From the NCBI GenBank assembly GCA_024867545.1, contig JANFNE010000071.1, positions 124,001 to 188,000 on the forward strand: DNA of 64,000 nt, written 5' to 3'. The notes under the pieces were generated by a model that ran no database searches, was not told the DNA's origin, and saw only the letters and a list, made by a program, of their open reading frames with translations. The DNA comes from Phytopythium helicoides (Eukaryota; Oomycota; Peronosporomycetes; Pythiales; Pythiaceae). Positions 8,301 to 43,409 of the stretch are shown here, one piece after another (within the stretch, counting starts at the first letter, position 1; each line of letters begins with the position of its first letter). The position numbers were made by a program, and so were the translations under genes.

Positions 8301-8467
8301 ACTATGCAGAGACATCGTCAACTCGCTCATTCACCACCACGTTTCGTCCTTTTGCGCATTAGCCCCGTGCGACTCGATGCTCGGTCCACGTTGAAGTAAT
8401 CAGCGCTCTGATTCTAATGCTGCTGGAGATTATGAACATCAGTTTGATGTTCTACCGTTGCTGGTCG

Positions 8468-8482
8468 CCCACTTTGCAATCG
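8468..8482 (+). promoter_or_regulatory. Inr-like core promoter, bZIP/START-like copy 1
   Basis: CCCACTTTGCAATCG fits the oomycete initiator/FPR pattern and is preserved in the inverted copy at 18223-18237. It places the transcription start about 38 bases before the ATG at 8509. Confidence 0.5.
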
Positions 8483-8508
8483 TGCGCTTTCTTAAGAGTC
8501 CCGTCGCC

Positions 8509-9801
8509 ATGGAGTCGCTGCCAATGATGGCCTCGCACTGGCTGATGGATGACCGGTGGTTCGACGAACCCAATGTACTACTCCCATTCGAGACTGTCGC
8601 GTCCTTCGATACCATTCAAGCTGGTGTTGTCCAGACCCCAACCACCTCGACTCCACCAGCAACGCCACAGACCTCCAACGCGAGCGAAGACGGAGACGAA
8701 GAGCGCACACTGGTCACCAAGACGCTAGATCGAAGACGCGTGTACCAACAGAAGAAGCGACGGGAGCTACTCGAGCTGCGTCGAGCGTCGGCGGAGCTTC
8801 AGATGCAGCTGCACGAGCTGACACAGCGTCGGAAGGCTTTCTCGATCGCCTCTGATGGCTCGAAGCGGCAGGCTACGGGGTGGAAGGGAATGGCGTTTCG
8901 CCAGATTCAGCGTCGAATTGCAGCGGAGACGCTCAATCGGGAGCTGAGGACACAGATTCGGACTCGTCACGAGGCTTCTGTGAGCCTCATGGAGTCTCTG
9001 CGAGCGCAGATGACCATCATGAAATCTTCGAGAGTGGTCAAGACGGACAACGGCGAGCGAAGCAAACCCGTCATGCAACTGACCGAGCAAGACGTGTGGG
9101 ATATGTCAATGCTCATGCACGACGTCGATGACATGTGCGCTCATGCATCGGTTGAAATTGAGCGGACGAGCATGCCACAAGTCGAGGCGACCAAGCCGTA
9201 CAGCTCGTGGTACTCGCGTGGTGTCACCGATTTTATGAGTGGTGTGCACAGTGCGACGTTTGCGGAGACGATAGTGATCCCGCACTCGTTCTTGGAAGCT
9301 AATGCTGCGATGGAGAAGGCTCTGAACATCATTATCCGCAACGAGTGTGTCCCTGTCATCTCTGGCGTTGCAGAAGATGGGTGCACAGTGGCTGTCAAGT
9401 ATGTTTGGGGGTCATTCGAGGTCCTCTCCATCTCGAAGGCAATTGATACCAGTTCTCGCACGGATCTTGCGTGGCGATCTGTGATCCGTGAGCGAGGGCG
9501 TCCTTCGGGTCCTTTGATTTCGGAGCGCGGGTGGGGATGCGTTGCAGCTTCCCATGAACTTCCGTCGTCGACGCGTGTCCAGTTTCTTTCACTTTGGGGG
9601 TTTGAGCAATTCCGGGCATCCAAATTGAACAGGCTAGAACAGCATGTGGGCCAACTCGACCAATACGTGCAGATGCTCGTCAAGGCTTCCGAGAGAGAGA
9701 CTATCGAGCTTGCCCAAACGATTGAAGACGTGATTGTGGACGAAATGGTTGCGCGGAAACATGACGAATTGATGCAGCTTGTGGAATCCAAGTATCATTA
9801 G
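8509..9801 (+). CDS. bZIP-like START-domain-like protein (oomycete M96-type family), copy 1
   Basis: Intact single-exon protein of 430 residues. A basic stretch with an adjoining heptad-like region (DRRRVYQQKKRRELLELRR, then a Leu/Gln-rich helix) around residues 75-125 looks like a degenerate bZIP. The C-terminal half, with motifs such as ETIVIPHSFLEANAAMEKAL and KYVWGSFEVL, resembles the START-like domain of the large oomycete family often annotated as M96 mating-specific or bZIP proteins. Probable nuclear regulator, perhaps ligand-responsive; this is inference. The start at 8509 (MESLPMM) is chosen because it is the first ATG of the frame, follows an Inr, and is conserved in copy 2. A frame-disrupted inverted paralogue lies at 16944-18196, and more distant relatives are at 58531-59850 and 60983-62386. 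Confidence 0.75.
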   Translation: MESLPMMASHWLMDDRWFDEPNVLLPFETVASFDTIQAGVVQTPTTSTPPATPQTSNASEDGDEERTLVTKTLDRRRVYQQKKRRELLELRRASAELQMQLHELTQRRKAFSIASDGSKRQATGWKGMAFRQIQRRIAAETLNRELRTQIRTRHEASVSLMESLRAQMTIMKSSRVVKTDNGERSKPVMQLTEQDVWDMSMLMHDVDDMCAHASVEIERTSMPQVEATKPYSSWYSRGVTDFMSGVHSATFAETIVIPHSFLEANAAMEKALNIIIRNECVPVISGVAEDGCTVAVKYVWGSFEVLSISKAIDTSSRTDLAWRSVIRERGRPSGPLISERGWGCVAASHELPSSTRVQFLSLWGFEQFRASKLNRLEQHVGQLDQYVQMLVKASERETIELAQTIEDVIVDEMVARKHDELMQLVESKYH

Positions 9802-14663: not shown

Positions 14664-16741
14664 TCAAGACGAGGAGGACACAAACGACGACGGCTCATTC
14701 ACCGCGACGCCATTGCTGTACGGACACGTGCCGCGATTGTGCCCTTCTGCTCGATGGCACTTGTGGCATTTGTACATGCCGCGTTTCCGTGCGTGCTCTG
14801 GCTTGGTTCGTGATCGTCGCTTCCTTTTGGGAGCCGCAGCTTGTCCATTGCCATCAGAGCCCGAGCTTTTTTGTGTGGAGCCAACACGAACACTCGACGC
14901 CAGTCGTGGAGGCAGAAGACTTTCGTCACGGGTGATGTTCTCGTCAAGTGGCAGCTCGATGTACCGATTCTGGAACGCAGACGCGTAGTTGGTCACCAAG
15001 TAGCACTCGTCGAAGAACTCCAGCGGGCTTGGAGCCAGCATCGCGTGCTGCTCGAGCTTTTGCAGCGCCGCGAGCGTATGGCGACAAGGAACGCCAAGCT
15101 GGAGACGCAACGCGCATGTGCATGTTCGATGCTGCAGATCGACACGTCGTTGTCGGACTTGAGCTGCTCGAGTGTTCCACACGAATGCTAGCTGCGGCGT
15201 CGACAAGACCACGTTGTACTCGCTTGCGCGAGCGAGTTGTTCTTGCATCAATCTCTCAGCTGTCGGAGTCACTACTCGCTGTTCACGAGTCCACTGCAAA
15301 GCCTTTTCATGCCGCGCGAACGACTGGCTCATCAGAAACACTGCAAGGGTCTGGAAGCACTCGTACGGAAGCTGAGCGCTGGGAAGGGGAGCCAACGGAG
15401 CTGTCGACGAGCCGTCCGCAGCGGTGGAGTTGCTGCCTTGTAGTCGGTCACGGGCAGTAAAGTCCACGCACTCGAGCTGCGTCGACTGCCAGCCGTACAG
15501 CTTTCTCGCCGTCACGTGCGGGAACAACGCCCATCGGCGAGCATCCAGAGCCGTCTTGAGGCAGTGCGCTGCTGCAAAGTTACGCTGTCCTAGCTGGGCG
15601 AGCGCGGCCAAGAACTCGCTCTCGCTCTCTGCACGCTGCGCTTGCCACACGAGCGGCTCGTCCTCTGGCGCAATGCTGATGCCGTGCCGAACCGTGAGGA
15701 TGTCGTCGACGACGCTCCGCGTGCTCACCATGACGTGTGGCAGCTTCGCCATGATAGTTGCCGGGTCATCCGCGAGCCACTTGGCAGTCACGAAGACTGG
15801 GAACCGCCGGAGCGGAAAGCCGTGCGCTTGAAGCTTGTCGACGAACCAGGTGAAGTGCTCTGCCGCCGCTGCGGGAACCAGCGCTGCGGCATGCACGATG
15901 GGGTCGAGGTTCCCGTCGCGGCCGATCAGGAGCAGCAGCTGTGCGCTGGTGAAGAGCGGGTGGGTCGTCTCGAGCGCATCGAGGGCCAGCGCTGCCTGTG
16001 CGTTCCACGCGCTTGTGGGGTCCATGGCGAGCACTGCGCGCAGCAGCCTGCCGTCCTGGTCCCTCTCGATCGCGCTGGCGACGTGCGTGTTGATCTGCTG
16101 CATGTGCTTGAGGAATGCCGGGAGCCTGCGCACCGACTCGACGACGCTGGGCACCGTCAGCGGGTGGCGCAGCGGGTCTGCTTTGCTCGCGCTCGCTGCT
16201 GGCGGCGCCTCTGCGCGCTGCTGGGCGTCGATGGCGTCCAGCAGGTCGCTCTTGGCCTTGTAGACCATGCTCTTGCTGCAGTCGAGGTTGGCGTGCGCGC
16301 GCAGCTGCGCCACGAGCTTGGCCGAGGACACGCGCGCGTCGCCCAGCACGGCCGCCTGGAGCAGCGCGCTGCGCTGCAATTGCCTGGCCTGTGGGCTTGG
16401 CGGCCGCGCTGCAGCCCTCCGAGTGCGCGAGCGAGCCCGACGTGACGTACCAGGCGCGGCGGCCCGCGGCGTCCCTCGCGCGCGCGCACACGGCGTTGAC
16501 GAGCCAGCCGCAGGGCGAGGCGCTCGCGCACACGAACTTTTTGTAGCTGCCGCCGCTCGTGGCCACCGAGCGCGCGCTTGCCCGCCGCCAGCGCCAGGTC
16601 CTGCACGTGCGCCGTCAGCGCGCGGCCCTCAGACCAGCGCAGGCGCCGCAGCGCCTCCCACTGCGCCTGCTGCGCCTCCGTCATGGGCGGCGGCGGCGGC
16701 ACGGCGGTGGTCCCATCCTCGCCGTCGCGGTCCGACGCCAT
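14664..16741 (-). CDS. Mutator (MULE) transposase-derived SWIM zinc-finger protein, frame-disrupted
   Basis: The domain order from the start (MASDRDGEDG, 16741) is as follows: an N-terminal helix; a FAR1/FLYWCH-like zinc module (YKKFVCASASPCGW ... HSEGC) in a second frame around 16390-16560; a transposase-like core (LLLLIGRDGN ... EHFTWFVDKLQ); a SWIM finger with CTCALRLQLGVPCRH near 15100; and a C-terminal knuckle CHKCHRAEGHNRGTC. Two single-base corrections, near 16563-16570 and 16382-16392, are needed to join the parts. The position equivalent to the second catalytic aspartate of MULE transposases (usually VTD) reads VTAKWLA, so DDE activity is probably lost. That suggests a domesticated gene or a decaying element. 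No terminal inverted repeats were found by eye. It lies between the inverted bZIP/START-like copies. Confidence 0.7.
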
Positions 16742-16943: not shown

Positions 16944-18196
16944 TCAAACGACAATCAAGCATTGCTTCCGCGCCACCATCTCGTCCACGATCACGTCCTC
17001 CACGGCTTGGGCGAGCTCCACGGCCTCTCTCTCGGAAGCCTTGACGAGCATCTGCGCGTACTTGTCGAGTGGGTCCACGAGCGGACCTTGAGACGGAAGG
17101 TTCTCAGCTCTCCAGTGCGAGAGATATTGAGTCTGCGTCGATGATGTGGAACCAGGAGCAGGCGCAATGCTCCCCCACCCGCGCTCCGAAATCGAAGGAC
17201 CCGAAGGACGCCCTCGCTCCCGGATCACAGATCGCCACGCAAGATCCGTGCGACAACTGGTATCAATTGCCTTCGAGATGGAGAGGACCTCGAATGACCC
17301 CCAAACATACTTGACAGCCACGGTGCAGCCATCTTCTGCAACGCCAGAAATGACAGGGACGCACTCGTTGCGGATAAGGATGTTCAAAGCCTTCTCCATC
17401 GCAGCATTCGCTTCCAAGAACGAATGCGGGATCACTATCGTCTCCGCAAACGTCGCACAGTGCACACCGCTCATTTCCGTGACACCACGCGAGTACCATG
17501 AGCTGTACGGCTTGGTCGCCTCGACTTGTGGCATGCTCGTCCGCTCAATTTCAGCCGATGCATGAGCGCACATGTCGTCGACGTCGTGCATGAGCATTGA
17601 CATATCCCACACGTCTTGCTCGGTCAGTTGCATGACGGGTTTGCTTCGCTCGCCGTTGTCCAGCTTGACCACTCTCGAAGAGTTCATGATGGTCATCTGC
17701 GCTCGCAGAGACTCCATGAGGCTCACCGAAGCCTCGTGACGAGTCCGGATCTGCGTCCTCAGCTCCCGATTGAGCGTTTCCGCTGCAATTCGACGCTGAA
17801 TCTGGCGCAACGCCATTCCCTTCCACCCCGTAGCCTGCCGCTTCGAGCCATCAGCGGCGATCGAGAATGCCTTCCGACGCTGCGTCAGCTCGTGCAGCTG
17901 CATTTGAAGCTCCGCCGACGCTCGACGCAGCTCGAGCAACTCCCGTCGCTTCTTCTGTTGGTACACGCGTCTTCGATCTAGCGCTTTGGTGACCAGTGTG
18001 CGCTCTTCGTCTCCGTCTTCGCTCGAATTGGAGGTCTGTGGCGTAGCTGGTGAATCGAGGGAGTTGGATTCTGGACAACAGCAGCTTGAATGGTGGCGAA
18101 GGAAGCGACGGTCTCAATTGGGAGTAGTACGTCAGATTCGTCGAGCCACCGGTCATCCATCAGCCAGTGCGAGGGCATCATTGGCAACGACTCCAT
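16944..18196 (-). pseudogene. bZIP/START-like protein copy 2, one-base frameshift
   Basis: Paralogue of 8509-9801 on the opposite strand, sharing the start MESLPMM, the basic DRRRVYQQKKRRELLELRR region and the START-like domain. Relative to copy 1 one base is missing near 18055: TCGACTCCACC in copy 1 reads TCGATTCACC here. Translation from 18196 therefore terminates at 17978. A second, in-frame change removes one codon (VTDFMSG becomes VTEMSG). The C-terminal tail differs (APAPGSTSSTQTQ... and a shorter end, ARKQCLIVV). The lost base is one of a CC pair, so a sequencing error is as likely as a real null allele. The long conserved frame downstream, with mostly conservative changes, argues that the gene was functional until recently. 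Confidence 0.7.
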
Positions 18197-18222
18197 GGCG
18201 ACGGGACTCTTGAGCAAGCGCA

Positions 18223-18237
18223 CGATTGCAAAGTGGG
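18223..18237 (-). promoter_or_regulatory. Inr-like core promoter, bZIP/START-like copy 2
   Basis: On the minus strand this reads CCCACTTTGCAATCG, identical to the site before copy 1 at 8468-8482. Confidence 0.5.
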
Positions 18238-18420
18238 CGACCAGCAACGGGAGAGTATCGAAGTACAGTAAGGAAAGCTAACTGACTCAACTTGAAAGCC
18301 CACAACGAGTCACACGGGGCAAATGCGCAAGAGGACGAAACGTGGTGATGACTGAGCGAGTTGGCGATGTGCTCTGCATAACGACACTTAGTACTGTATG
18401 CCTCATGTACCATCTGCTCG

Positions 18421-19061
18421 CGTGCTGAGGTGGCTGCCCCGCCAAAAGAAGAGATACGAAGCGCGTTCTGACCTGGATTTTCTTGGGGGCATCTGAAGTT
18501 GACCACTCTGCTGCTCGACACAGCGAAATAAGCACATCGTCATGTGTTTCTTCTACATGGTGAAACTGTATCAAGCTATCATTTCGTACGCGGGGGAGCA
18601 GCATCGGCGTGCTGTTCGCAAGAAAGATGCTCCGTCGATCCGTTGGCACGAGCTCTTACATAAATCTGCAACAATCTCGTAAACTCTCGTGGGTGATGCG
18701 CATGATTGCATGCACAGGAAAGGGCTCGCAACCCCTCTCTCAACTCACGCAAGACTCTGGATGGCTGTCAGTTTTCTACAACACCTAGAATAGTTGGCTG
18801 GGCAACCTCCCCCACCTCATGTTGTTTACAGCTGGGTGTTTTCAGCACGCTGACAAACACATTCCGTTCCAGCCTGCCCGCCGCCATGACTGGAATGCAT
18901 TGAAGCACTACAGCGCAAGCTTTGCTCCCAAGAGCTTTGCAAGCTTCGAGACACGTCACTTTGTGGGTTACATCATTGAACCACGTTATTTTTGTCACTC
19001 AGTTACACCTACATACGGAGACAGGCCGCGCTGTCGCTCCAGCCTCTGTGGCCTGGAAAGC
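18421..19061. other. Intergenic, no gene recognised; may contain the 3' end of the Fanzor element
   Basis: No open frame of interest. The right boundary of the Fanzor-bearing element, and any guide-determining junction, should lie in or just left of this stretch near 18950-19060, but no terminal repeat could be identified by eye. Confidence 0.4.
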
Positions 19062-19190
19062 GCGACTAAGTCGCCTTGGGTCGATGCTCATCGGCACAGA
19101 CTGTCCTGTCGATGACAAGACACCGCTGTCTCACACCTGACTCCTCGGAGGTAGGCCGCTCCGAGGGCGTGAAGAATCACGCCCTGTTTA
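19062..19190 (-). ncRNA. Candidate Fanzor guide RNA scaffold (omega/fRNA): consecutive hairpins
   Basis: Reading on the minus strand from the Fanzor stop codon (19188-19190), a run of stable hairpins begins three bases later. An 8-bp perfect stem GGGCGTGA/TCACGCCC with a four-base loop lies at 19165-19184. An 8-bp stem CCTCGGAG/CTCCGAGG with an eight-base loop is at 19143-19166, overlapping the first by two bases. A 5-bp stem AGACA/TGTCT is at 19118-19131, a weak 4-bp stem at 19107-19117, and a 6-bp stem GCGACT/AGTCGC at 19062-19074. TnpB and Fanzor guide RNAs characteristically start in or just after the 3' end of the nuclease gene and end at the element's right end. Position, strand and structure all fit. 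Exact ends and the guide segment are not determined. Confidence 0.6.
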
Positions 19191-21101
19191 CGCGAGGAGC
19201 ACCTCATTCTTGAGGAAAATGTTCCTGGCTGCATTGACGTCACGATCGAGCACGAAACCACAAGACGGACACCAAAAGACACGCTGGGAAGTCATGTCGT
19301 GGTTGACTCTCCCACAGCGGGAGCAGGTCTTCGTCGTCCATTCCTCCTCACACTCAATCATCACTCCACCCGAGCGCGCCATCTTGTGCTCAAGAAGCTT
19401 CTTGAACCTATAGTGCGCCATCGTGAGCATCTTGCGCGTCGTCTGGCGCGAGAGTCGACGTTGCCGGGCGGTCATCTCTGACGTCCGGAAGCTGGGAAGT
19501 AGCACTTGATGATAGTTACTCGAGAGCCACGTAGTCACCTTGTGATGCATGTCGTCGACGATATTCCTCACACGCTGGAAGCCATTCGTCACGTGCTTGG
19601 AAAGACGATGCCGTCGCCGCTTGAAGCGCTTGCCACGTGCTCGTGCTCGTTTCGATATTGCGCGGTCTATCACTAGGCACCGCTTGAAGACTCGGTCGTC
19701 CGCGTCATGGACGCCAAGGGTCAAACCGCCTGGGTCGTAGATGGTAGCGAACGCTCGGACGCCCGGGTCGATCGCACACACTCGCGTCGAACGCGTTTGC
19801 TCGAACACCTTCTCGTGCGGGATGCAGAGGTAGACGCTGCCGTTTCTCATCCGTTGCAGGCGAACGTCATGCTGCGGGTCTTCGATCGGCTTGGTCGTGG
19901 GCATTCCTTCGTTCGTGGCAAAGCCAAAGTACCTCGGTAAGAAGCGCACGATCGTCCGATCACCCACGACCTGTATACCCTCTCTTGGCATCTGGACAGA
20001 GTTCGAGCGATCCGATATTGACTTGAACTTGAGCTCCGGCACGGAGACGTGCTGCTCCCCTGCTGCCACACGCTCAAAGAACTGTGCTCTTGACGACTCA
20101 ATCGCCTTGCGGAAGTCGTGGTACGCAGAGTTGATCACTACTGAAGGAGTCGTGAGGTGGTGTAGTGATAGGAACTGAGTCAATGTAGCCTTCGTCGCGA
20201 TAGGGTGGTATCTCGCGTACAGCTCGGGTCTACTGAAGCAGAAGCAGTCGAGCCGACCCCAACTCCCACCTGCACGTCGCTCCGCAAGTCTGCAGTCGAT
20301 CTTGAAGCTCTCGACCAGTTTGTTGTACACCGCGCGATGAGTCCAGAACGCCTTGTTGAGCAACAGCCGCTCCTCTCTCGTTGGGTACAACCTCATCTTG
20401 ATCGTTCCCATCATTGGCTCGGCATCGTCGAGCTTCTTCTTGGTCGCGCACGTGGCATCGAACGGGTAGACGTCCTGCTGGTCCGGTCGCCCCTTCACGT
20501 TGGTCACGCCGAACCACGACCGGTGATGCAGCAGATCTTGTGCTATTGGCGGAATCGTCGGGTTATCGTCGGTTGGAGGGTCCGCTGGAGAAGGCAGCCA
20601 TACCTGTCCGGCACGCGCAGCAATGTCGGCATTCCACCAAGGTGGATAGGCGATCCGAGGCCGCGGTGGGTTGGGGGCGGGCGGAGCTTGCTCGGGGACT
20701 CTCGGAGGCACGTTCGCTGCTGCCTCGTCACGGGCTGCTGGCTGAGCTTGACCGTGTGTTCTTGGGGTCGCGTTCGGGCCTGCTGCAACACTCCTCGCGA
20801 TCAAACGGGTGCAGTGGAGGTGCGGTTGGCCAGCATGTGGACGGATGGCAGCCGGTGGCGGGTCCACCTCTTGCAGGTGTTGCTGACGTTGCTGCTGTTG
20901 CTGTTGTCGCTGCTGTTGCTCGTGCTGTTGCTGACGCTCCTGCTGTGCTTGGAGGCGAGCACTGCGCCGTGGTCGGGAAGACGAAGACGCCGAGTCCGTG
21001 GCGTCAGTCGCCGGAGCAGACACTGGTGGTGGTCGCGGTCGTCGTGGCGCAGGCTCGCCGTTGTCTGCGCCGAGATCTCGCTGGCGCTTGGAGCGAGCCA
21101 T
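19188..21101 (-). CDS. Fanzor, eukaryotic TnpB-like RNA-guided endonuclease
   Basis: Intact single-exon protein of 637 residues, starting at the first ATG (MARSKRQRDL). Residues 1-190 are a disordered extension with basic clusters and a Gln-rich run (about 51-77), as in Fanzors that carry nuclear signals. Residue 234 onward (IKMRLYPTREERLLLNKAFW) is the typical TnpB/OrfB opening. The RuvC-I motif is CAIDPGVRAFATIYD with Asp445. The usual RuvC-II glutamate position reads VLLPSF (Pro536), whereas a glutamate cluster occurs about 47-51 residues later (MIECEEEWTTKTCSRCG, 581-596). This displaced glutamate is a known Fanzor hallmark. A CxxC...CxxC zinc ribbon (Cys593, 596, 611, 614) and RuvC-III DRDVNAARNIF (619-629) follow. 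Expected role: DNA cleavage guided by the RNA encoded just downstream. Probably of the Fanzor2 type, close to IS607 TnpB. All motifs are present and there is no frameshift. Confidence 0.9.
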   Translation of the reverse strand: MARSKRQRDLGADNGEPAPRRPRPPPVSAPATDATDSASSSSRPRRSARLQAQQERQQQHEQQQRQQQQQQRQQHLQEVDPPPAAIRPHAGQPHLHCTRLIARSVAAGPNATPRTHGQAQPAARDEAAANVPPRVPEQAPPAPNPPRPRIAYPPWWNADIAARAGQVWLPSPADPPTDDNPTIPPIAQDLLHHRSWFGVTNVKGRPDQQDVYPFDATCATKKKLDDAEPMMGTIKMRLYPTREERLLLNKAFWTHRAVYNKLVESFKIDCRLAERRAGGSWGRLDCFCFSRPELYARYHPIATKATLTQFLSLHHLTTPSVVINSAYHDFRKAIESSRAQFFERVAAGEQHVSVPELKFKSISDRSNSVQMPREGIQVVGDRTIVRFLPRYFGFATNEGMPTTKPIEDPQHDVRLQRMRNGSVYLCIPHEKVFEQTRSTRVCAIDPGVRAFATIYDPGGLTLGVHDADDRVFKRCLVIDRAISKRARARGKRFKRRRHRLSKHVTNGFQRVRNIVDDMHHKVTTWLSSNYHQVLLPSFRTSEMTARQRRLSRQTTRKMLTMAHYRFKKLLEHKMARSGGVMIECEEEWTTKTCSRCGRVNHDMTSQRVFWCPSCGFVLDRDVNAARNIFLKNEVLLA

Positions 21102-21120
21102 GGCTGGTTGCCAGCGGATC

Positions 21121-21131
21121 CGCAAATGAGC
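21121..21131 (-). promoter_or_regulatory. Oomycete initiator-like site before Fanzor
   Basis: On the minus strand GCTCATTTGCG lies 20-30 bases upstream of the ATG. It matches the oomycete initiator core (GCTCATTYYN), suggesting that the gene is read by the host polymerase II machinery. Confidence 0.5.
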
Positions 21132-21204
21132 AGCGAACGACTGAGGGGAGTCGAATGGCTCGCCATTGTCGATCGTGCAAGTTGAAGTTCAATTGTCTGG
21201 ACAT

Positions 21205-24067
21205 GTCATTCCTCCTCTTTTACATACAAATCCTTTTGGCATCCTGTTAAAATAGGCGGGGTGACGTCCTCATCGCTCTAAATCAGTTACACATCGAAGG
21301 ATGACAACGTTTGCCGTTGTAGATAACGATCTTCAATCTGCGATAGCAAAGCGGTAGCACGTCATTTCGCCTCAGCAACCGTCAAGGAGAAGGTTTATGC
21401 TTTGTAGCTAGACCAAGTGGCGCATTTCCTCTACCGGACGCACAGCGTTCGCATTCGCGCACATGAATGCAATACCAACACCTCCACCAAGATCAAAGCT
21501 TTCTCCCACAGTTCCAGCATGCGCTCATTGCTCAGAGAGTGGCGTCTCGATCCGAGTGGCTAGCTGATGATGATGCTGGCAGCTGCAGCGACTTGTATTC
21601 GAACTTGGGAGCTGGCAGGAACTTCGACTTGGCCAGGACTTGGCCCAGGACTTGGAACTACTTGCAGCTCCAAGCGAGAGCGCGGTGCCACCTGGGCTAA
21701 GCCATCAACAAAGGCGACGAGCGCCGGAAGAGTCACCAATGCAACGCTGCAGCCACCTCTCGCGCCACGGAAACGCGTCGTCAGCCTCATCTACTGCGTC
21801 CTCGTGATTCCAACTCCTGCGCTCAAGATGTCAAAGCTAAGGCTCCCGAGTCCCTGCTACTCTTCGTCATTCTACTGTCGGTGGAGCTGAATGCTATGCT
21901 AGAGCCAATACCATCGCTACTTCGTTAGACAAAATCATGACATTGAGGTCACCTAGAGCGAGCAAGCATGACGATTTCATGTTGTGAGCATAGAAGAACA
22001 GATAACAACAGACAACACACCAGCTCCCACTTAAACTCTTCGGCGTGAAGACGTTGGTGTACTACTCGCCACTGTATGAGCGTTTTGTACGCAGTTGATC
22101 TGTAGTGGCAGTAACATCAGCATCAGTATCAAAGTACCGAGAGAAGTGGCTATATGTGTTTACATCTGGCCTACTTATCATTGCTTCTCGCGGTTGGACA
22201 CGAGGATAAAGGCTGGACCAGCAAGCTATATTGAAATGCTTTGTTCGCCGCCTGATTCTCGGAAACTCGAACAACTTACTTCGAGTGCGTGATCGACTAG
22301 TCAATACGCATTGGCTAGTTGTCAGCCCACTCGAGCACATACCAACTCGCATTGTTGTAGAAGCAGATCAAGGCAGAGATGCCGCTTTTACCAAGCAGCA
22401 GATCGCGAATCCGTCTGTGGTAGTCATTTGTCGGCTTTTGCTGCTCATCACACCCTCACGCAAGCCTCTATCGGCAGTACAATTCACTGAACCACCTCTG
22501 ATCCCCATGGTTGAACGCTGCTAGACCTCCTCGGTCTATCTTGCATCTCAATCGTTGAGCAACCTTTCCAACAGACAGCATTTCCCATACGCATGTAAGT
22601 ACTCACGCTTGCTTGAACCTCCTTGGGTCATTGGGTCATTTCCTCCATCGCTCAGCCATTGGTCAAAACAAAATTATATCTCCTTCATTGGTTTAAAAGG
22701 AAGTAATTTCACCCAATCCAAAGCGTCACGTCGTTTTTAGCTTCTTGGCTCCCATCGCCGAATCAAAAGCACGTGAACTGCATGCGATAGTCTCTGCATG
22801 GTACATTTGTTTCTCATTAACATGGAGTGCAAGGAGCCCAGCAAGGGACCGAGGGCCATGAAGACTGCATAGGCGACTCAAAGACGCTGCTAGAGTCCTC
22901 GGACGTTGAAGGCTTGCCGAGAGCTCAATGGCCGTGTCGAGGATTCCAATGCAAACTCCAAAGCTCTCTACAGAGTCGCTTCACCGAGAAGCCTGAACTG
23001 AGAGGTGCCTGAACTGAGAGGTGCCTGATGGTGAACGTTTGTTATTAGGGTTTGTTTGGGCAGTGAGTTTGCTTTATGCACGAAAGACGTCAACGCCGTT
23101 ATATTGGCTGTTGTGTCTAGTGATGATAAGTTTTCAGTTGTGGCAGCGGTCGAGGTCCGCCTCATTGGGCTGGTATTGGAGCAGCGTGATGTCAATAATC
23201 ACGCCATGATGTGTCTAAAGATCGACGACGATCTCACCAGTGATCGGTGAGATATTAGCCTCTGCCTCTCACTGCTTGCATTGCATTCTGGTCAAGAACT
23301 TGTGCACGATCACACTAGATCACTCCCTCCTGACCAACCTGCCACCTCTTTACAGCATTCGATCGCTAACGCCTTTGAGGTGGCTAGTGGTCGCCAAAAC
23401 GATATCGCGTCTTGGCGTCCTGAACGCGTCGCCAGAACTACCAGCCTTGATCTTGTATGCTCCTGGCTTGCTCCAGATTGTAATAGGATAGCGAAACTGA
23501 ACAGCTTCGCCACTTGTCAAGATGCACTTCAGCTGAACTCCTCCTGGCATTCACTTCAACCTCATCCTTTTAACAAAACTATTTCAACCAATTGAAAGGA
23601 TCTTATTCTTCAATTTTCAGCCAATCACTAGTGATGAGTGACGTATGTGACGTCGTGAGGGCGTCCACCGCCATTGGCCACGCACAAAGGTGACGAGAAG
23701 CTCTTTCGCGTTCATTGCGGTGCTCACGACTCGATCACGTGGCAGTCGCCGTGCACCTCTAAGCTCCTGACATTGCGCCGGTGCTCGTTGTCCGTACACT
23801 CATCTCGCTGGTGGTGCAGTCAGCGGTGCATCAATCCTATAGACTCGAAAGGAGACCAGATCCACTGGAGCAAACGCCATCAGTGGATGTCGTTAGCTGC
23901 TCGATGACGTCGCGGTGCAGGTCTTGAGCTCTTCAAATCGTGTTGGATGCGGATCAAAAGGAAGACTTTACATGGCGATCAGGGTCACCACTGGCGATTT
24001 GACTGGCACACTCGACGGACACTGTCAGCTAGTCGCAGCTGCGCAATGTGCAGTCTCGGAGGCCCGG
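21205..24067. other. Gene-poor intergenic region (2.9 kb)
   Basis: AT-richer than the surrounding genes. It has only short overlapping frames with no motifs, and no recombinase-like frame that could partner Fanzor. A short tandem repeat lies at 22991-23022. Confidence 0.5.
22991..23022. repeat. Two perfect tandem copies of a 16-mer
   Basis: GCCTGAACTGAGAGGT is repeated exactly at 22991-23006 and 23007-23022, followed by a partial third unit (GCCTGA). Confidence 0.9.
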
Positions 24068-35769: not shown

Positions 35770-37470
35770 TCATTTATGCCGATCATCAGCTCCACTGATG
35801 ACACTCGACTCATTCAACGCTTCGCGACCGAAGCGCAAGAGAGTCGACTCCAGCTTGCGAATGTTGAATGCCGACACGTCGGCAATTTCTAACAGCGTGA
35901 AGTGGGGGGACTTCAAGTCGCGATCCCCGTAGCACATGCTTGAACGAAGCATCGCGGCTGGATCCGCTAGCCCTCCGATCTGAATTCGATAGTGCTCTCT
36001 CACGTGCTCGTACTGCGCCTCAGCCGTCACCATCGACGCTTCCGGGAACGAAAACAACTGCAAGTGCGTCCACACCGCGTCGCGCTCCACATCCTCCAAT
36101 CCACTCAACTTCTTCGCGTTTCGGTGCATGAACAGAATCGCCTCGGCTCCAGCATCCACGCTCGCATCAGGATCAAACTGCACCATGGTCATCCCGCAAT
36201 ACACGACACCGTCCGCTTCCGTCTCGACCTTGGAACCGGCAGAAGCAGGTGGGTGCTGCACCATGTGGAACGACGTGTTCGTCTTCATCCACGCGAGCCG
36301 GAACAAATCCTTGTCGCCGTGAAGAAACTTGAGACTCGCAAAGTGGTTTGGCTCCTGATACGCCAGTAGCTCGAGTACGGCGAGAGCACCAGTAGCCTTC
36401 GCGCGACGTTTGTCGACTAGGATCTGACCGCTTTCCTGCTCAAACATGTCCACAAACGGCGTGCCGACCATCTCCCACAGCGGCGAGTGTTCGTGAATAT
36501 TGAAGATGGTGTTGCGAGGATGCCAGAAGTCGGGCCAAAAGACCGCGCCCGTGGTTCGGAACGCTTTGGAGTCTGTGAACAGATAGGTCGGGTCTCTCAC
36601 AGGGACGTTATCTGCGTCGAGGAACAAAACCTGGTCGAAGTCGCTGTTGATGAGCGCGTAGACCTTGGTGGCGAATCCTCGGATGCGGTCGTCGTCGATG
36701 GCTCGGAGTGCGATAGGTCCGTATTCGTTCACAAACGATTTCAGGATGGGTCGTGTGTTGGCTGGTGCGTCGTCGCCCATTTCGCTTTTCATGTACCATA
36801 GCTCGACGGGTAGGGTGCATCCGTATGTGCGAAGCATTCTGACGGTGGCATGTACGCTGACGAGCATCTTGGGGTAGATCACCATGACGATACCGTTGGA
36901 GGGCTTTGGGTGTTTGATTGACCATCGATGTCTCTCGAGTTGAGCACGTAGTTGCTCCCGGTAGTCCCAGCGCGCTTGAGTCATTGCTTTCTCGATCTGA
37001 GCTGGAAATCGCGCCATTTCGGCAACTTGGTTGCACGTGAAGGACACATCCTCACGTATTGTAGTGCACGTTGTAAGCATCTTTTGGACCTCTGTACCGG
37101 AGTCGAGATCCTCCAGGAGGCAATACCCTGATGCAGTTCCTTCGATCGAAGTTGAGCATTCGTCATCCATTTCGGTGTCTGCCGGTCCATTCGGGTCGCA
37201 CTCAGTTGTTTGGCGCCATCCGATACACTTGTATTGCGGCTCATGAATCGATTGTGGATCTACTAGAGGACCTGTGAACTTGAAGAACGCTTCGAGCTCA
37301 TCGGTCGTACTCTCCATCCCACCAATCAAGAAGAACTGTAGGCACCAAAAGGCTGTGAGGCACAACGCGTAAAAGATCATCATCCCTGGTGTAACACCAG
37401 AGCTACGTCTAGGCAATCGGAGCGGTATCTCTGGCGCAGCGCTCGCGTTAGAAGCCCGTCTTGAACGCAT
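35770..37470 (-). CDS. GT71-like Golgi glycosyltransferase, paralogue 1
   Basis: Intact 566-residue type II membrane protein. It has a short basic cytosolic tail, a membrane anchor at about 30-50 (MMIFYALCLTAFWCLQFFLI) and a Cys-rich stem (KCIGWRQTTECDPNG, SGYC). The catalytic domain opens with NGIVMVIYPKMLVSVHATVR near residue 192. The DXD metal/nucleotide-sugar motif is VLFLDADNVPVRDP (Asp285-Asp287). Conserved blocks AVFWPDFWHP, FVDMFEQESGQILVDKRRAK and HGDKDLFRLAWMK follow. The overall plan matches Mnn1-type alpha-1,3-mannosyltransferases (GT71, putative mannosyltransferase family), but the donor and acceptor are not known. It is the first of seven paralogues in this cluster and convergent with the PX gene, with 135 bases between the stops. 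Confidence 0.82.
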   Translation of the reverse strand: MRSRRASNASAAPEIPLRLPRRSSGVTPGMMIFYALCLTAFWCLQFFLIGGMESTTDELEAFFKFTGPLVDPQSIHEPQYKCIGWRQTTECDPNGPADTEMDDECSTSIEGTASGYCLLEDLDSGTEVQKMLTTCTTIREDVSFTCNQVAEMARFPAQIEKAMTQARWDYREQLRAQLERHRWSIKHPKPSNGIVMVIYPKMLVSVHATVRMLRTYGCTLPVELWYMKSEMGDDAPANTRPILKSFVNEYGPIALRAIDDDRIRGFATKVYALINSDFDQVLFLDADNVPVRDPTYLFTDSKAFRTTGAVFWPDFWHPRNTIFNIHEHSPLWEMVGTPFVDMFEQESGQILVDKRRAKATGALAVLELLAYQEPNHFASLKFLHGDKDLFRLAWMKTNTSFHMVQHPPASAGSKVETEADGVVYCGMTMVQFDPDASVDAGAEAILFMHRNAKKLSGLEDVERDAVWTHLQLFSFPEASMVTAEAQYEHVREHYRIQIGGLADPAAMLRSSMCYGDRDLKSPHFTLLEIADVSAFNIRKLESTLLRFGREALNESSVISGADDRHK

Positions 37471-37769
37471 TCTTGAGCAGCGAATATGCTCTCAGTCCTC
37501 TCAGAAGCCTTATTGAGATCTCCTCTTTCCAACCCGAAGTGAACCTGTTCTCAAGGTCGCAAGCAAGAAAGCTGCTCTGGGTGAGACGAACCACCTTCGA
37601 GGTGCGTGCCAAACTGTCCTGTAGGCAGTTGAAGTTTGTGCTCATTCATAGGAATCAGCCACGGACTTCGGTGCTAGTGACGTTACACTATCTCATTCGG
37701 TGCAGCATGGACTCAAGTGTTCAGACCTGATGGAGTTCAGAAATCTGTGTTGCGCTAATTTACAGGAAC

Positions 37770-39599
37770 CTAACTTGGCTGCAACTGCGTGTGCAGCTCC
37801 ATCGCTTCCCGACCGAAGCGCAGTAATGAAGTCTCTAGATCACGAATGTGCCAGGATGCACCCACTTCATCAACTGGAGTCAGCTGGAAGTAAGGCGATT
37901 TGAGGTTGCGGTCGCCGTAGCACTGATTACATCGGACGATCTTTGCGACGTCTGACATTCCTCCATACTCGATGCGATAGAACTTGCGAGCGTGCTCATA
38001 CTGCATCGCAGGAGTCGCCATTGCTTCTTCCGGGTATTTGAAGACTTGAACGTGCGTCCACACAACGTCCTTGTCTTCCTCTTCTTCCCCCGTGAGCTTC
38101 TTGGAGTTGCGATGCATGAACAGAATTGCCTCCGGGCCTGCATTGGCGCTTGCATCTGGATCGAACTGCACCATAGTCATCCCGCAGAAGACCGTGCCTT
38201 CCACCCCTTCAAATGTAGATCCCGCTGTTGCCGGTGGGTGAGGTACCATATGGAACTGCGCTCCAGCTTTCATCCACGCGAGGCGAAAGAGATCTTTATC
38301 TCCGTACGCCATCTGCATAGCTGCAATGTAGTTTGGCCGGTAGAATGCTAGATATTCAAGAGCTGCAAATGCCCCGGAAGCCTTTGCCCGACGCTTATCG
38401 ATAAGCACCTGGCCGCTTTCCTGCTCAAACATGTCGACGAACGGCATACCAATGACCTCCCACAGCACAGATTGCTCGTGAATGTTGAAAATCGTGTGCG
38501 GTGGCAACCAGAAATCCGGCCAAAACACGGCTCCAGTGGCTTGGAACGCCTTGCTCTCTGTGAACAGGAATGCTGGATCTCTCACGGGCATGTTGTCGGC
38601 ATCAAGAAACAGTACTTGGTCAAACTCGCTGTTCAAGAGCGCATAAATCTTTGCGTAGAACCCCCTTGCGCGAGAATCTCTGATCTGTCGAAGCGTAGTG
38701 GGTCCATAATCGTTCACAAGCGACTGCAGAACAGGCTGGGTCTCCACAGGTACTGTGCTGCCGCGCATCATCTCGCTCTTGAGGTACCAAACCTCAATTG
38801 GTAGTGCGCATTTGTGAACCGTGCGAAGGAGACGGATTGTTGCGTGGACGCTCACCAGTAGTTTGGGATAGACGACCATGACAATCCCGCTGGTTGGAGT
38901 CTGCAGCTCATCCATGCGCCGCAGCGTTGCTTGATTCTGCGTCTCAATCGCGTTGTTCCATTTCGCTTGGGCAATTGCACGCTCGAGCTCGGCTGACGTC
39001 TTGGCGATATCTGCTGCCTGGCGGCACCGAAAACGCTGGCCAAGCATGACAGACGAACAGTTCACTGAGAATGCTTGGACTTCTTCTCCGGTTGCTTCAT
39101 CCAACATCATGCAGTATCCCGAAGCCATCCCACCGATGATCGGCGCATCACACGATCTGTTTGTCTCCACTGGTTGGATATTCTGAATGCCAGCGCACGT
39201 GCTGGTCTCGCGCCACCCAAGACACGTGAGTTTGGGAACATGGATCGACTGTGGGTCGATTAGAGACGAATCCAACGTCCGTGGGTCGACAGCAGCCTGA
39301 GGCGAAGCGCCTTCGAGCGTCTCGCAGTTATCGCCTCGAAACGAGCCACCTAACCACCACAGAGTCGTGCAGACTCCGTAAATGAGCATGGCCACCCACA
39401 TGAGGAGCGGCTTGCCGACATGTCCGTTGGCCAGCATTTGCGTTCTGCGCAGCAAACCGAACAGTGGTTCTTCCTCCTTTGTTTCGCCACCGTGGGCCTT
39501 TCGACCTGACGTTTTGCAGCACTTGGAATCGGAATGCCCGTGCACAGCCGTGTCCAACGCATTGTCGCGTATGCCTGCGCGATCGTGAAGGGACCTCAT
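37770..39599 (-). CDS. GT71-like Golgi glycosyltransferase, paralogue 2
   Basis: 609 residues from the first ATG (MRSLHDRAG); the frame is open upstream but without an ATG. The membrane anchor is at about residues 64-85 (PLLMWVAMLIYGVCTTLWWL). The stem carries TCLGWRETSTC and SGYC. The DXD motif FLDADNMPVRDP lies at 333-335. The blocks GAVFWPDFWLP, VDMFEQESGQVLIDKRRAK and YGDKDLFRLAWMK are all intact, as is the C-terminal CYGDRNLKSPYF signature shared by most paralogues. Nearest in sequence to the paralogue at 43981-45899 (shared LWWLGGS anchor and RRMDELQTP-like stem). Same strand as its neighbours on both sides; 299 bases separate it from paralogue 1. Confidence 0.82.
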   Translation of the reverse strand: MRSLHDRAGIRDNALDTAVHGHSDSKCCKTSGRKAHGGETKEEEPLFGLLRRTQMLANGHVGKPLLMWVAMLIYGVCTTLWWLGGSFRGDNCETLEGASPQAAVDPRTLDSSLIDPQSIHVPKLTCLGWRETSTCAGIQNIQPVETNRSCDAPIIGGMASGYCMMLDEATGEEVQAFSVNCSSVMLGQRFRCRQAADIAKTSAELERAIAQAKWNNAIETQNQATLRRMDELQTPTSGIVMVVYPKLLVSVHATIRLLRTVHKCALPIEVWYLKSEMMRGSTVPVETQPVLQSLVNDYGPTTLRQIRDSRARGFYAKIYALLNSEFDQVLFLDADNMPVRDPAFLFTESKAFQATGAVFWPDFWLPPHTIFNIHEQSVLWEVIGMPFVDMFEQESGQVLIDKRRAKASGAFAALEYLAFYRPNYIAAMQMAYGDKDLFRLAWMKAGAQFHMVPHPPATAGSTFEGVEGTVFCGMTMVQFDPDASANAGPEAILFMHRNSKKLTGEEEEDKDVVWTHVQVFKYPEEAMATPAMQYEHARKFYRIEYGGMSDVAKIVRCNQCYGDRNLKSPYFQLTPVDEVGASWHIRDLETSLLRFGREAMELHTQLQPS

Positions 39600-39979
39600 T
39601 CTGCGCTGAGATGCGATCACGTCAGAGTATCCAACGAAAGTTTGAGATGGATCCACTTCACGAAGGCCAGCAATTGCGGCGAGAGAAATTCATTCAGAAC
39701 CCTTAGTGCACAAGAGGTATCCCGTACTGGCATCTCGGTGCAGTGGTTATGGGCACGCGTCCCGGGACGTGAGATGGCTATGAAACTCCACCAGCGCCCG
39801 CTTGCGAACGCCAGTGGATCTTTCCACTCACGGAACGTTTGAAAGTCGCGCGATTTGGGTTGTCTGTCATCACCGCCGTCTCCTTCGCCTTTGTCGTCTC
39901 CATCGTCTCCATCTTTACTCGCTGGTGCCAGGGCTGAACGCCCGTCGCTTGATTGCATAAATACCATGTACTGGACGAA
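39600..39979. other. Spacer between glycosyltransferase paralogues 2 and 3
   Basis: 380 bases upstream of paralogue 2. Nothing beyond presumed promoter and terminator sequence is recognised. Confidence 0.4.
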
Positions 39980-41839
39980 CTACTTGCCGCCAAGCCGAAT
40001 GTTGAGCTTGATTGGCGCTGCCATGACGGCCACCTTCTTCTCTGTAGGCAGTTCTGCCACCGCATCGCTCGCAAACTGCAGCAGTTGTCTCTCGATATCG
40101 GGAAACGCAGTCTTTCCCCACTCGATGGTCTTGTAGCGAGGAGTCAAGAGCGTCATTTGGCCATAGCACCACTGCGTGGGGGGAAACTGCGGCGCTCCGT
40201 TGTAGATCTCCACGTGATAGCTGCGCTTCATGAACTCGTACAGCATATCCAGCTTCCCAGACCTCACTCTAACACCTGGAGCTCGAGTTGGAGGAGGAGT
40301 CGTCGGCTCAATGACTGCGGTTGACGCTGGAGTAATCCGCCGAGCGTCAACGTCTCGTCCAAGATACTGAAATCGCTGTAAGTGTGTCCAGATGAGCTCA
40401 TCTGGCTTGCTCTTGGATCCTCGTCCACCCGTAAGCTTCTTGGCGTTGCGGTGCAGGAACAGCACGTCGCCATTCGGATCCGCCTGGACCATCGACATAC
40501 CGCAGAACTTATCGTCTCGCAACGTTCCAGCCGTACCAGGAGGATGTGGCACCATGTAGAACGGCGTCCGCGTCTTTAGCCATGCCAGTCGAAACAAGTC
40601 CTTGTCACCATGTGCTAGCTTGAGTCGGACGAAGATGTTCGGCTCGTGAAATGCGAGCAGGTTTAGCATTCGAAGTGCAGCATGAGCTCGTCGCCTGTCA
40701 ATGAGTAGCTGACCACTCTCCTGCTCGAACATGTCGACGTAGGGCATGTCAAGTAGCTCCCACAGCAGCGACGCACTGTTCACATTAAAGATGGTGTGAT
40801 CTGGATGCCAAAAGTCGGGCCAGAAGATGGCTCCGAACTCGCGGAACTCGCGAGTAGCAAAGAGATAGCGCGGGTCTCGCACTGGCACGTTGTCTGCATC
40901 AAGGAAGAGCACGTTGTCGAACTGCGAGTTTGAGATGGCAAATACCTTGGTGTTGAAGCCCGTGATACGTTTGTGGTAACGCGGATCTTCCGTTGGTAGC
41001 GGTCGGAGGTAAAGCTGCGCTTCCGCTGTTGATCCGTTCCTTAAGAGCCACTCGAGTTGATCCGCCGTCACGTTTGCATCGCGCATTTCGGCTGGCGAGT
41101 ACCACATCTCGATCGGCAGCGAGCTGTTGAGCGACGAGCGCAGCACTCGGACAGATGCCAGCGCGCTCACCAGCAGCTTTGGGTAGACGACCATGACAAT
41201 TCCATCCGTTGCATTCGCCTTCTGAGCGGTGGGAAGTATCGGGGTAATGTTGAGCTGGCCTGTCATTTCGGATGCGTTGGTGCTGCCGACGTCCGTCGAG
41301 TTGAGCTTTTGCAAACCCGAGCTGAGTTTCTTGGCGAGCGAATTGACAGCGAGCTGGAAGTCGGCAAACTCGCCTGCGTGGCGGCAGGTGAAGACGACGT
41401 CCGGTCGCACGCTGTCGCACGTGGTGCGCATGATTCGCACCTCCTCGCCGGTGTCTTCGTCGACCATGAGGCAGTAGCCGGGCACGGCTCCGCGCACATA
41501 TTGATCGCACGTGCGGTTGCGATTGGAGATGACCGGCGTGTTGGGGTCGCAGTTCTCAGTCTGCTTCCATCCAAGGCAGCGCAAGTTCCGTCCGAGCATC
41601 CCGCTGTCCTCGGAGTCGTTGCCGATCGCGTGGCGGCCGCCAAACTCCCGCACGTGCCGCCCCGCATGCACTTGGCTCGCAGCGATCGGGAACATCTGCA
41701 ACGAGTTGCTGCTCTCTAGCGTCCTGGAGCTCGTGGAGACGGCCATGTAGACCACGAAGCCCAACGCGTAGAGCCCCACGACGGCGAAGAGCGTCTGGAA
41801 TCTCGCGACGCGCACCACGCGAGCCCCCGAGCTCGCCAT
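39980..41839 (-). CDS. GT71-like Golgi glycosyltransferase, paralogue 3
   Basis: Intact 619 residues. The anchor is at about 13-34 (RFQTLFAVVGLYALGFVVYMA). The stem has RCLGWKQTENCDPN and several N-glycosylation sequons, more than in the other paralogues. The catalytic domain starts at DGIVMVVYPKLLVSALASVR, with DXD LFLDADNVPVRDP (Asp314-Asp316), then AIFWPDFWHPDHTIFNV, VDMFEQESGQLLIDRRRAH and HGDKDLFRLAWLK. It is one of the two divergent members; it lacks the NEYGPI block and carries instead an extended loop (LYLRPLPTEDPRYHKRITG). It shares a 216-base divergent promoter region with the mitochondrial release factor gene. Confidence 0.82.
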   Translation of the reverse strand: MASSGARVVRVARFQTLFAVVGLYALGFVVYMAVSTSSRTLESSNSLQMFPIAASQVHAGRHVREFGGRHAIGNDSEDSGMLGRNLRCLGWKQTENCDPNTPVISNRNRTCDQYVRGAVPGYCLMVDEDTGEEVRIMRTTCDSVRPDVVFTCRHAGEFADFQLAVNSLAKKLSSGLQKLNSTDVGSTNASEMTGQLNITPILPTAQKANATDGIVMVVYPKLLVSALASVRVLRSSLNSSLPIEMWYSPAEMRDANVTADQLEWLLRNGSTAEAQLYLRPLPTEDPRYHKRITGFNTKVFAISNSQFDNVLFLDADNVPVRDPRYLFATREFREFGAIFWPDFWHPDHTIFNVNSASLLWELLDMPYVDMFEQESGQLLIDRRRAHAALRMLNLLAFHEPNIFVRLKLAHGDKDLFRLAWLKTRTPFYMVPHPPGTAGTLRDDKFCGMSMVQADPNGDVLFLHRNAKKLTGGRGSKSKPDELIWTHLQRFQYLGRDVDARRITPASTAVIEPTTPPPTRAPGVRVRSGKLDMLYEFMKRSYHVEIYNGAPQFPPTQWCYGQMTLLTPRYKTIEWGKTAFPDIERQLLQFASDAVAELPTEKKVAVMAAPIKLNIRLGGK

Positions 41840-42055
41840 GGCTCCGTCCGACCTGGAAATGGGCTCGAGGCCTCGTCAACGCCGTTGCAACGCTGCCGCA
41901 GCGCTCGATTCGCGTCCACAGCCGTCGGATCGGCGTCTGCGTGCCATGAGCGGTGCCGAGCATGTGCCATCTGTCCTCATCGGATTCATGTACGGTACTG
42001 CCGAGTCGTGCCGCGACCATCCAAAGTGTCGCACTGTGACCACCCTCGGTCTCAC
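41840..42055. promoter_or_regulatory. Divergent intergenic promoter, glycosyltransferase 3 / mtRF1
   Basis: 216 bases separate the divergent start codons at 41839 and 42056. No clear Inr was recognised on the mtRF1 side apart from GGTCTCACATG overlapping the start. Confidence 0.35.
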
Positions 42056-43409
42056 ATGATGCTGCGCGCCTGTGCCGCTCGCCTGCTGCTGGCTGGCGCT
42101 CGGCCGACGGCTCGTGCGTCGCCTCGGCTGCGACTGGCGGCTGGGCATGCGCTGGCTCCGCCGCTGGGCCGCGGGATGGCCCTGCACGCGTCCATCCTGA
42201 GCCAGATGGAGCTGCTGTCGGCGCGCTACGAGGAGCTGTCGGCCGAGCTGTCGCACAACGACGGCAGCATGGCGGCCGAGCGCATCACGAGCCTGTCGAT
42301 CGAGATGGCCGACATGGAGCCCAAGGTGCTGGCGGCCAGGGAGCTCAAGGACAAGCAGGTGGCCATCCAGGAGCTCGAGGAGGTGCGCAACAGCGCTGAA
42401 GTCCTTCTGGTGGTGGTGGTGGTGCGTCAACTCACGCGGCGCTGCAGATGATTGAGGAGCAGCGAGAGGAGACGGACGCAGACGCACTAGAGCTGCGCCG
42501 CATGGCGGAAGAGGAGCGACGAGAGCTGCTGGAGCAGGTGGCCGAGCTCGAGGCGCAGGTCACGGTGCGTTGTTGAACGGCGTGAAGCACGAGGGAGGGG
42601 ACCGACATGCTGACGCTTTTCGGTATCTGCAGCGATTGATGCTGCCGCGAGATGCTGCGGACGACCGCAGCTCGATCGTCGAGATCCGCGCGGGCACGGG
42701 CGGCGACGAGGCCTGCTTGTTTGCGAGCGACGTGCTCAAGATGTACCAGAAGGTGGCGCTGGCCAAGGGCTGGCGATTCGAGGTGCTCAGCATGTCCGAG
42801 ACGGACCTGGGCGGCGTCAAGGAGTGCGTGTGCTCCATCACGGGCCGCGGTGCTTATGGTCGCATGAAGTTCGAGAGCGGCGTGCACCGCGTGCAGCGTG
42901 TGCCGGTCAACGATGTGCGCGTGCACACGAGCGCAGTGTCGGTCGTGGTGCTGCCAGAGGCCGAGGCCATCGACCTGCAGATCGACCCCAAGGACCTGCG
43001 CATTGACGTGTACCGCGCGAGTGGTGCCGGTGGACAGCATGTCAACACGACCGAGTCGGCTGTGCGCATCACGCACATTCCTACGGGCATCCAGGCGGCT
43101 GTGCAGGACGAGCGATCGCAGCACCAGAACAAGGCAAAGGCCATGAAGATTCTAGCTGCGCGCGTGCTCGACGGCGTGCGGAGACAGCGAGACTCGGAGC
43201 GTCACTCGATGCGCAGCGCGCAGGTCGGCTCGGGCGATCGATCCGAGCGCGTGCGCACCTACAACTTTCCGCAGAGCCGCGTGTCGGACCACCGCGTCAA
43301 TGTGACGGTCTACGGCATCGAGCGAGTGCTCGGTGGCGAGCTGCTGGACGAGATCGTCGACGCGCTCGTAGTCGAGGAGCAGAACAAGCTGCTGCAGCAG
43401 CTGGAATAG
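42056..43409 (+). CDS. Mitochondrial peptide chain release factor 1, shortened decoding loop
   Basis: Three exons, 42056-42400, 42448-42564 and 42633-43409, with GT...AG introns of 47 and 68 nt (the second with GTGCGT donor and TGCTGAC branch site), encode 412 residues. The N terminus is rich in Arg, Ala and Leu with no acids for 40 residues, as in mitochondrial targeting peptides. The helical domain 1 and the RF1 core ([32 protein letters not shown]) are clear. The catalytic loop [16 protein letters not shown] with the GGQ motif is intact, as are [12 protein letters not shown] and [16 protein letters not shown]. The codon-recognition loop is unusual: RF1 normally has RVPxT plus about five residues before HTS, whereas here it reads [12 protein letters not shown], two residues shorter and without the Thr of the PxT motif. 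Confidence 0.87.

Follow-up and report, generated by a model that had tools for sequence, protein, structure and literature searches.

The window, by which we mean the whole 64,000-nucleotide stretch of DNA analysed here (part of the 245 kb contig C70), carries on its minus strand an uninterrupted open frame of 637 codons (19188–21101, with the ATG at 21101 and the stop at 19188). The full 637-residue frame given in the preliminary description thus stands, and the motifs listed there are all present at the positions read: the TnpB opening (IKMRLYPTREERLLL, from residue 234), AIDPGV, DRDVNAARN and a CxxC/CxxC ribbon. Motif and alignment reading place the RuvC-I aspartate at D445 (19767–19769, minus strand), and sequence reading places the RuvC-III aspartate at D621 (19239–19241, minus strand). 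Profile and sequence reading agree on the zinc ribbon (19260–19325, minus strand), with its cysteines C593/C596 and C611/C614. The RuvC-II glutamate is a relocated one, E586 (19344–19346, minus strand), seven positions ahead of C593, while the canonical site reads LLPSF. Residues 233–263 (20313–20405, minus strand) match Pfam HTH_OrfB_IS605 with 25.5 bits (cut-off 21) and are preceded by an N-terminal extension (residues 1–225, 20427–21101, minus strand) that is rich in P, A, Q and R and partly disordered in the structure model. Elsewhere in the window there are an inverted duplication (16963–18380 and 8303–9761, 87% alike), a minus-strand frame of 571 aa at 14664–16379 whose only domain is a SWIM zinc finger, at 35770–52425 six clustered frames that carry a putative mannosyltransferase domain (PF11051) and, following this cluster, a subtilase-like frame at 52489–55575.

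The protein had been described as a Fanzor, a eukaryotic relative of the TnpB nucleases, and both profile search and structure prediction place it inside the TnpB/Fanzor clade, not outside it, in agreement with its DPG and relocated glutamate. With 75.3 bits for Pfam Cas12f1-like TNB (cut-off 26.3) and 130.7 bits for NCBIfam guided_TnpB (cut-off 100), the family match is not due to chance; Pfam OrfB_IS605 with 25.4 bits stays under its cut-off of 30.5. The best match by PDB sequence search is mimivirus L79 (E 1.7e-25), and SpuFz1 is not listed there at E up to 1. An AlphaFold2 model built on a 74-sequence alignment has a mean pLDDT of 81.4, with mostly >90 in the core and <50 at residues 1–43 and 82–132 of the extension. 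In a Foldseek search this model finds the mimivirus Fanzor2 (9b0l) at the top with E 2.6e-21, ISDra2 TnpB second and the Fanzor1 SpuFz only at rank 44. The excerpts of PMC10711439 describe as the Fanzor fingerprint a DPG together with a glutamate moved beside the zinc finger; the window protein has both (D445-P446-G447 and E586, the canonical glutamate site being lost as LLPSF), with D621 as the third residue. It also fits the motif D-X(125,275)-[TS][TS]XX-C4 finger-X(5,50)-RD given in excerpts of PMC3627910, with D445, TTKT, C593/596/611/614 and R620-D621. Fanzor2 is the type that falls with TnpB and pro-Fanzor and not with Fanzor1; the HTH_OrfB_IS605 domain, which occurs in some of its members, is present with the 25.5 bits given above. 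Judged by sequence and modelled fold, the window protein is a Fanzor2, its closest solved relative on both counts being the mimivirus Fanzor2. A Fanzor1 identity was rejected, since the mimivirus protein and not SpuFz1 or GtFz1 is nearest by sequence and fold. RNA-guided cutting of DNA would be the expected activity.

The window frame is one of three open near-full copies in the assembly (49 Mb in 100 contigs, with 46 TNB matches). The other two, C1a and C1b, lie 3.5 kb apart on contig C1 (1.96 Mb); these 92% identical relatives have frames of 623 and 644 aa, the stop column counted, and their DNA shares 91–92% identity with the window element over 19006–21281. Both C1 frames continue upstream to a further ATG, and in the window copy a stop blocks the same stretch. 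The ATG of the 637-aa frame could be either the true start in all three copies or an internal start used after the loss of about 46 residues; the differences between C1a and C1b in the upstream stretch are few and, by eye, mostly amino-acid-changing, for which reason the shared ATG may be the true start. A distant relative on a viral contig of 142 kb (L053) aligns from window residue 154 and shows a PWWN...WLP...SWF string ahead of its HTH stretch. As this alignment reaches into the N-terminal extension, part of the extension may be an old conserved segment.

In the core (after residue 225) dN/dS amounts to 0.127, 0.102 and 0.148 for the three pairs of open copies, with 0.53–0.62 for the N-terminus of the same copies and 0.16 for the core of a further pair, C79b and C32. 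With these low ratios and a core dS of 0.26–0.27 between the window copy and C1a/C1b, the protein was kept while the copies diverged, and by this measure the open copies are under purifying selection. It is the open frame and dN/dS that suggest current or recent function of the window Fanzor2. A dead relic, with a frame open by luck and a protein that no longer works, would fit the closure of the upstream frame in the window copy only and the presence of damaged copies elsewhere in the genome. We consider it improbable in view of the core dN/dS of 0.10–0.13 between this copy and its two relatives at the dS stated, and because all catalytic residues are kept. Among the damaged copies, C20 is 76% identical and has eight TGA and five TAG in its aligned part, C53 and C6 retain about 190 bp of the 3' end, and C46 retains a piece of it. 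The C53 and C6 loci (L046 and L047) are gene-less remnants that run from just before the stop codon to the exact 3' end; they stem from one event and are not independent, as their flanks are shared on both sides.

Several other loci were noted in the assembly. Two Fanzor2 copies (L014, C1:1936000-1945500) occupy the two arms of an inverted repeat of 9.4 kb. Its arms are 99.3% alike, and it is either a real palindrome or an assembly artefact. A further divergent subfamily on C21 and C16 (L016, L017, L018) has open frames of 725 codons with DPG and HTH domain, and beyond the C16 copy there is a second piece of its 3' end, seemingly standing alone. At about 971–977 kb of contig C1 (L051), close to the C1 elements, a unit of about 1,365 bp is repeated in tandem, with near-identical copies. 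On contig C58 five TNB matches fall into about 33 kb (approximately 205–239 kb); two C-terminal pieces read there are near-identical and have a long zinc finger. Because these pieces are Fanzor1-like by eye, the genome seems to hold both Fanzor types.

A protein search with residues 222–637 yielded 593 proteins at E up to 1e-5; with the N-terminus included only two matches were obtained, as its low complexity dominated the search. The named relatives among the best 120 of the 593 include Globisporangium splendens, several Phytophthora and Nothophytophthora, the yeast Lipomyces and the cyanobacteria Plectonema and Moorena; nearest among them are G. splendens and Phytophthora nicotianae with 47% identity each. 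For the neighboring mannosyltransferase gene, every organism-named relative among the best 120 of 550 is an oomycete, and the closest of these 120 matches has 85% identity. We also built a tree of 82 rows, which contained no Fanzor1 reference and from which four listed fragments or outliers were omitted. In it a long branch (100/100) unites the window protein with its two close copies and stands next to a group of 31 rows, G. splendens and P. citrophthora among them; C79b from the same genome falls with Phytophthora and Nothophytophthora. According to a program warning some other long branches may be misplaced. The phylogeny proposed in the preliminary description was thus run with oomycete relatives and sets the window protein beside oomycete rows. 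The same description had named a bacterial contaminant contig as an outcome that would count against it, and none came to light: the two closest copies lie on a contig of 1.96 Mb and the organism-named relatives listed for the neighboring gene are oomycete. That a bacterial TnpB on a contaminant contig is at hand would agree with the match to TnpB profiles and with some named relatives being cyanobacterial (about 40% identity across half the length, for some of those listed), but the nearest named relatives among those listed are oomycete, as are those of the neighboring gene, and copies occur on other large contigs of the assembly. On these grounds we consider the contaminant reading refuted and its probability negligible; going by these sequence relationships, the host of the window Fanzor2 is an oomycete. 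No relative was confirmed when IMG/VR was scanned with the window protein alone. A scan of IMG/VR and prokaryotes with an alignment gave at least 80 viral and at least 80 prokaryote loci, of which 160 were taken further. Counted by alignment, both fingerprint marks are present in 4 of the 160, three viral (L054, L061, L085) and one cyanobacterial (L133). As these four are only 26–34% identical to the window protein, there is no close viral relative among the 160 loci examined.

The whole element without its duplications spans 19009–21282 (minus strand, 2,274 bp), as defined by its likeness to C1a and C1b, and is bounded by exact 10-bp repeats at 18999–19008 (3' copy, GTGTAACTGA on the minus strand) and 21283–21292 (5' copy), which we regard as target-site duplications; the likeness to C1 ends one or two bases short of the repeat. 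Taking the last conserved base of the 3' end as zero, we searched 14 copies for exact upstream repeats of at least 8 bp. In three of them a repeat starting at zero recurs 2.28–2.34 kb upstream. Its length is 11 bp in C1a and 10 bp in both the window copy and C68. The latter, whose zero point inside a G run was placed to fit, belongs to a sister subfamily with about 40% identity at the protein level. At random positions of the same loci, a 10-mer recurs within a 300-base stretch at that distance in 157 of 200,000 trials and an 11-mer in 70 of 200,000. The other 11 of the 14 copies and a fifteenth show no such duplication; several are damaged or have ends set by eye, which makes the negative test weak for C21, C16a and C16b, whose 3' ends were placed in this way. 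At the three duplicated sites GAT, TAT and GAT stand just ahead of the duplication, which begins with G, and the first flanking base is G at 10 of 11 placeable junctions, with A in the damaged copy C35. Matches between the terminal 20 nt in inverted orientation are no better than in shuffled sequence in the four elements tested: out of 500 shuffles, 424 reach the best match of the window copy, 490 that of C1a, 489 that of C1b and 63 that of C68.

The 3' end is fixed, being common to all copies of the family that have one. Regarding the 5' ends, that of C1a lies 76 alignment columns further upstream than that of the window copy, and in two sister subfamilies a 3' query finds nine loci and a 5' query six loci with different starting points; C79a and C79b share the same 5' starting point. 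C1b contains the 5' duplication of C1a and about 70 bp beyond it, with a different 3' flank, so that it could be either a daughter of C1a carrying 5' flank or the product of a local duplication or gene conversion that stopped at the 3' end of the element. No empty site for the window copy, C1a or C1b was listed in a search that was not exhaustive, as a known 159-bp likeness between C1 flanks is absent from its listing. The Fanzor2 frame is the only long frame on its coding strand inside the element. A search of the whole assembly with PF00239, the serine recombinase/resolvase profile, gave no match; of 14 control genomes, 10 were positive. An IS607-type element was rejected for lack of a PF00239 match in the assembly and for the 10-bp duplication.

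The 3' noncoding stretch (19009–19187, minus strand) is the predicted scaffold of an omega-RNA, in view of its fold z-score and its preservation in C1a, C1b, C53 and C6. Of 200 shuffles of the segment 18996–19200, 199 fold less well than the segment itself (z -2.79). Between the window and the C1 copies 166–168 of 180 positions are identical in the 5' noncoding part and 166–170 of 181 in the 3' noncoding part; as the former is about equally conserved, conservation alone does not single out a guide RNA. In three subfamilies we found a hairpin followed by a GAGGAG-like string, with a loop able to pair with the last bases of the element. In the window the predicted hairpin lies at 19144–19165 (minus strand), and its loop (19151–19156, GCCUAC) can pair with the element's 3' end, the predicted 3' strand of a pseudoknot (19007–19012, minus strand, GUAGGU), whose last two bases belong to the duplication. 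There are six such pairs in the window copy, five in C79b and five in C68 and C1c, formed by different letters. Compared with random 8-mers of the same composition, the chance of such pairing is 0.015 for the window, 0.039 for C79b, 0.016 for C68 and 0.021 for C1c, the first three being the best members of their subfamilies, so that the test is a modest one, and the pseudoknot is weaker in C32 (0.087) and C79a (0.090). The C79b end is likewise a good pairing partner for the window loop (score 5.0), and within the window family the two strands are invariant across five aligned rows. Rfam gave no match at gathering score in the window. As excerpted, PMC10711439 reports that a pseudoknot between hairpin loop and scaffold 3' end is needed by ISXfa1 TnpB, and predicts one in Fanzor2. 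A 3' hairpin-loop pseudoknot in the predicted RNA of the window element is likely, with moderate support from these comparisons. The model predicts a guide starting near 19006 (minus strand) and a target motif resembling (G/T)ATG(T/G); going by the junction, the guide would be the flanking DNA beyond the scaffold, at 18987–19006 (minus strand). For two Fanzor2s, both with disordered N-termini, the target motifs CCG and TAG are given in excerpts of PMC10432273.

We think it probable that this is an oomycete mobile element that carries a Fanzor2 and no transposase, relies on RNA-guided cutting of element-free DNA and is inserted in trans. Its 3' end would be transcribed into an RNA made up of a scaffold (at most about 180 nt, with the pseudoknot closing it) and about 20 nt of flanking DNA as guide, which the Fanzor2 protein would most likely bind. 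The nuclease may then cut double-stranded DNA in which a match to the flank adjoins a short motif, namely the allele or sister chromatid without the element, and repair from the filled copy would keep or spread the element in a homing-like manner. For insertion the element would depend on a trans-acting enzyme, which would recognise its 3' end, insert the DNA and duplicate 10–11 bp of the target.

How the element moves could be explained in other ways. It might be a Helitron2-like passenger that spreads by rolling-circle replication from its 3' end, the 5' ends being imprecise and the duplications short, a reading compatible with the nuclease function. The fixed 3' end with differing 5' ends (C1a 76 columns upstream; nine versus six loci) and the 3' pieces left in C53, C6 and C46 argue for it, as do the duplications of 10–11 bp, since CRe-1, 2 and 3 have about 7–19 bp and 5' truncation in excerpts of PMC3627910, and the 33 genomic matches to Helitron_like_N, many of which lie in long open frames. 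This combination of fixed 3' end, variable 5' end and 10–11 bp duplication is seen in few copies. The same excerpts show a T-rich sequence before the 5' duplication, where we find GAT, TAT and GAT; moreover, C79a and C79b share their 5' start, and a scan with one 20-base end pattern returned only the Fanzor2 element family and one site with three mismatches. On balance we regard this reading as rather unlikely. We give slightly less credence to a passenger of a cut-and-paste transposon with 9–11 bp duplications and no obvious inverted repeats, such as a Mutator-like one (Fanzor2* type). SWIM fingers occur in Mutator-like transposases, and the SWIM zinc-finger frame of the window lies 3 kb from the element. 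The constant duplication length of 10–11 bp points the same way, as does the presence of Fanzor1 in MuDr-type elements with 9-bp duplications (excerpts of PMC3627910). Against it stand the terminal inverted matches, which do no better than shuffled sequence in any of the four elements tested, and the differing 5' ends, which do not suit a two-ended transposase. We tentatively suggest, as a speculation that may well prove wrong, that the oomycete Fanzor2 spreads one-endedly from a 3' end that is at the same time the last helix of the scaffold. The Fanzor2 motif would coincide with the preferred target (G/T, A, T, followed by a G-rich start), insertion would write motif and guide together, and C1b would be a daughter of C1a with about 70 bp of its 5' flank.

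Fanzors of both types are listed for oomycetes, in Pythium, Phytophthora and Albugo, by Bao and Jurka in 2013 (PMC3627910, as excerpted), and the presence of a Fanzor2 in an oomycete is therefore not new. What is of interest is the element's ends, which bear on the way in which transposase-less Fanzor elements spread and on the role that RNA-guided cutting plays for such elements. With open copies under selection, a defined 3' end, duplications, predicted guides and the apparent parent-daughter pair C1a/C1b, the models of guide, motif and insertion are directly testable. Our literature search, which left most subscription papers outside, listed no title devoted to oomycete Fanzors and did not find this insertion pattern (short duplications, one fixed end, no transposase) for Fanzor2.

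The mimivirus Fanzor2 (L79, PDB 9b0l, from Acanthamoeba polyphaga mimivirus) belongs to the same fold class, with 20% identity in the fold alignment, but its element ISvMimi has an IS607-type serine recombinase (excerpts of PMC3627910), which the window element lacks. In these excerpts Fanzor2 elements have neither inverted repeats nor duplications. The Fanzor2s of Phytophthora, an oomycete like the host of the window, are given there as one each in P. sojae, P. capsici and P. ramorum, Fanzor2 in general being tied to IS607-type elements without inverted repeats or duplications; compared by description only, the window element differs in having duplications. Fanzor2 has also been found in cut-and-paste elements with inverted repeats and duplications (excerpts of PMC10711439). 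Among these, the Fanzor2* of Chloropicon and molluscs resembles the window element in standing outside IS607 and having target-site duplications, and differs in its terminal inverted repeats, none of which were found here. The ISXfa1 TnpB guide RNA (excerpts of PMC10711439) offers an experimentally shown counterpart of the loop/3'-end pairing, which is a prediction in the window element. The Helitron2 elements CRe-1, 2 and 3 of Chlamydomonas share with it the lack of a transposase of their own and, going by the few copies that show this pattern, a fixed 3' end, differing 5' ends and variable duplications, yet they carry Fanzor1, exist in many copies and have T-rich sequence before the duplication (excerpts of PMC3627910). 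Set against these systems, the window gene adds one more member to a known family. The element is a variant in which a Fanzor2 without recombinase or inverted repeats is combined with 10–11 bp duplications and one fixed end. Should this pattern hold, IS607 and cut-and-paste transposons would be joined by a third kind of element that has taken up Fanzor2.
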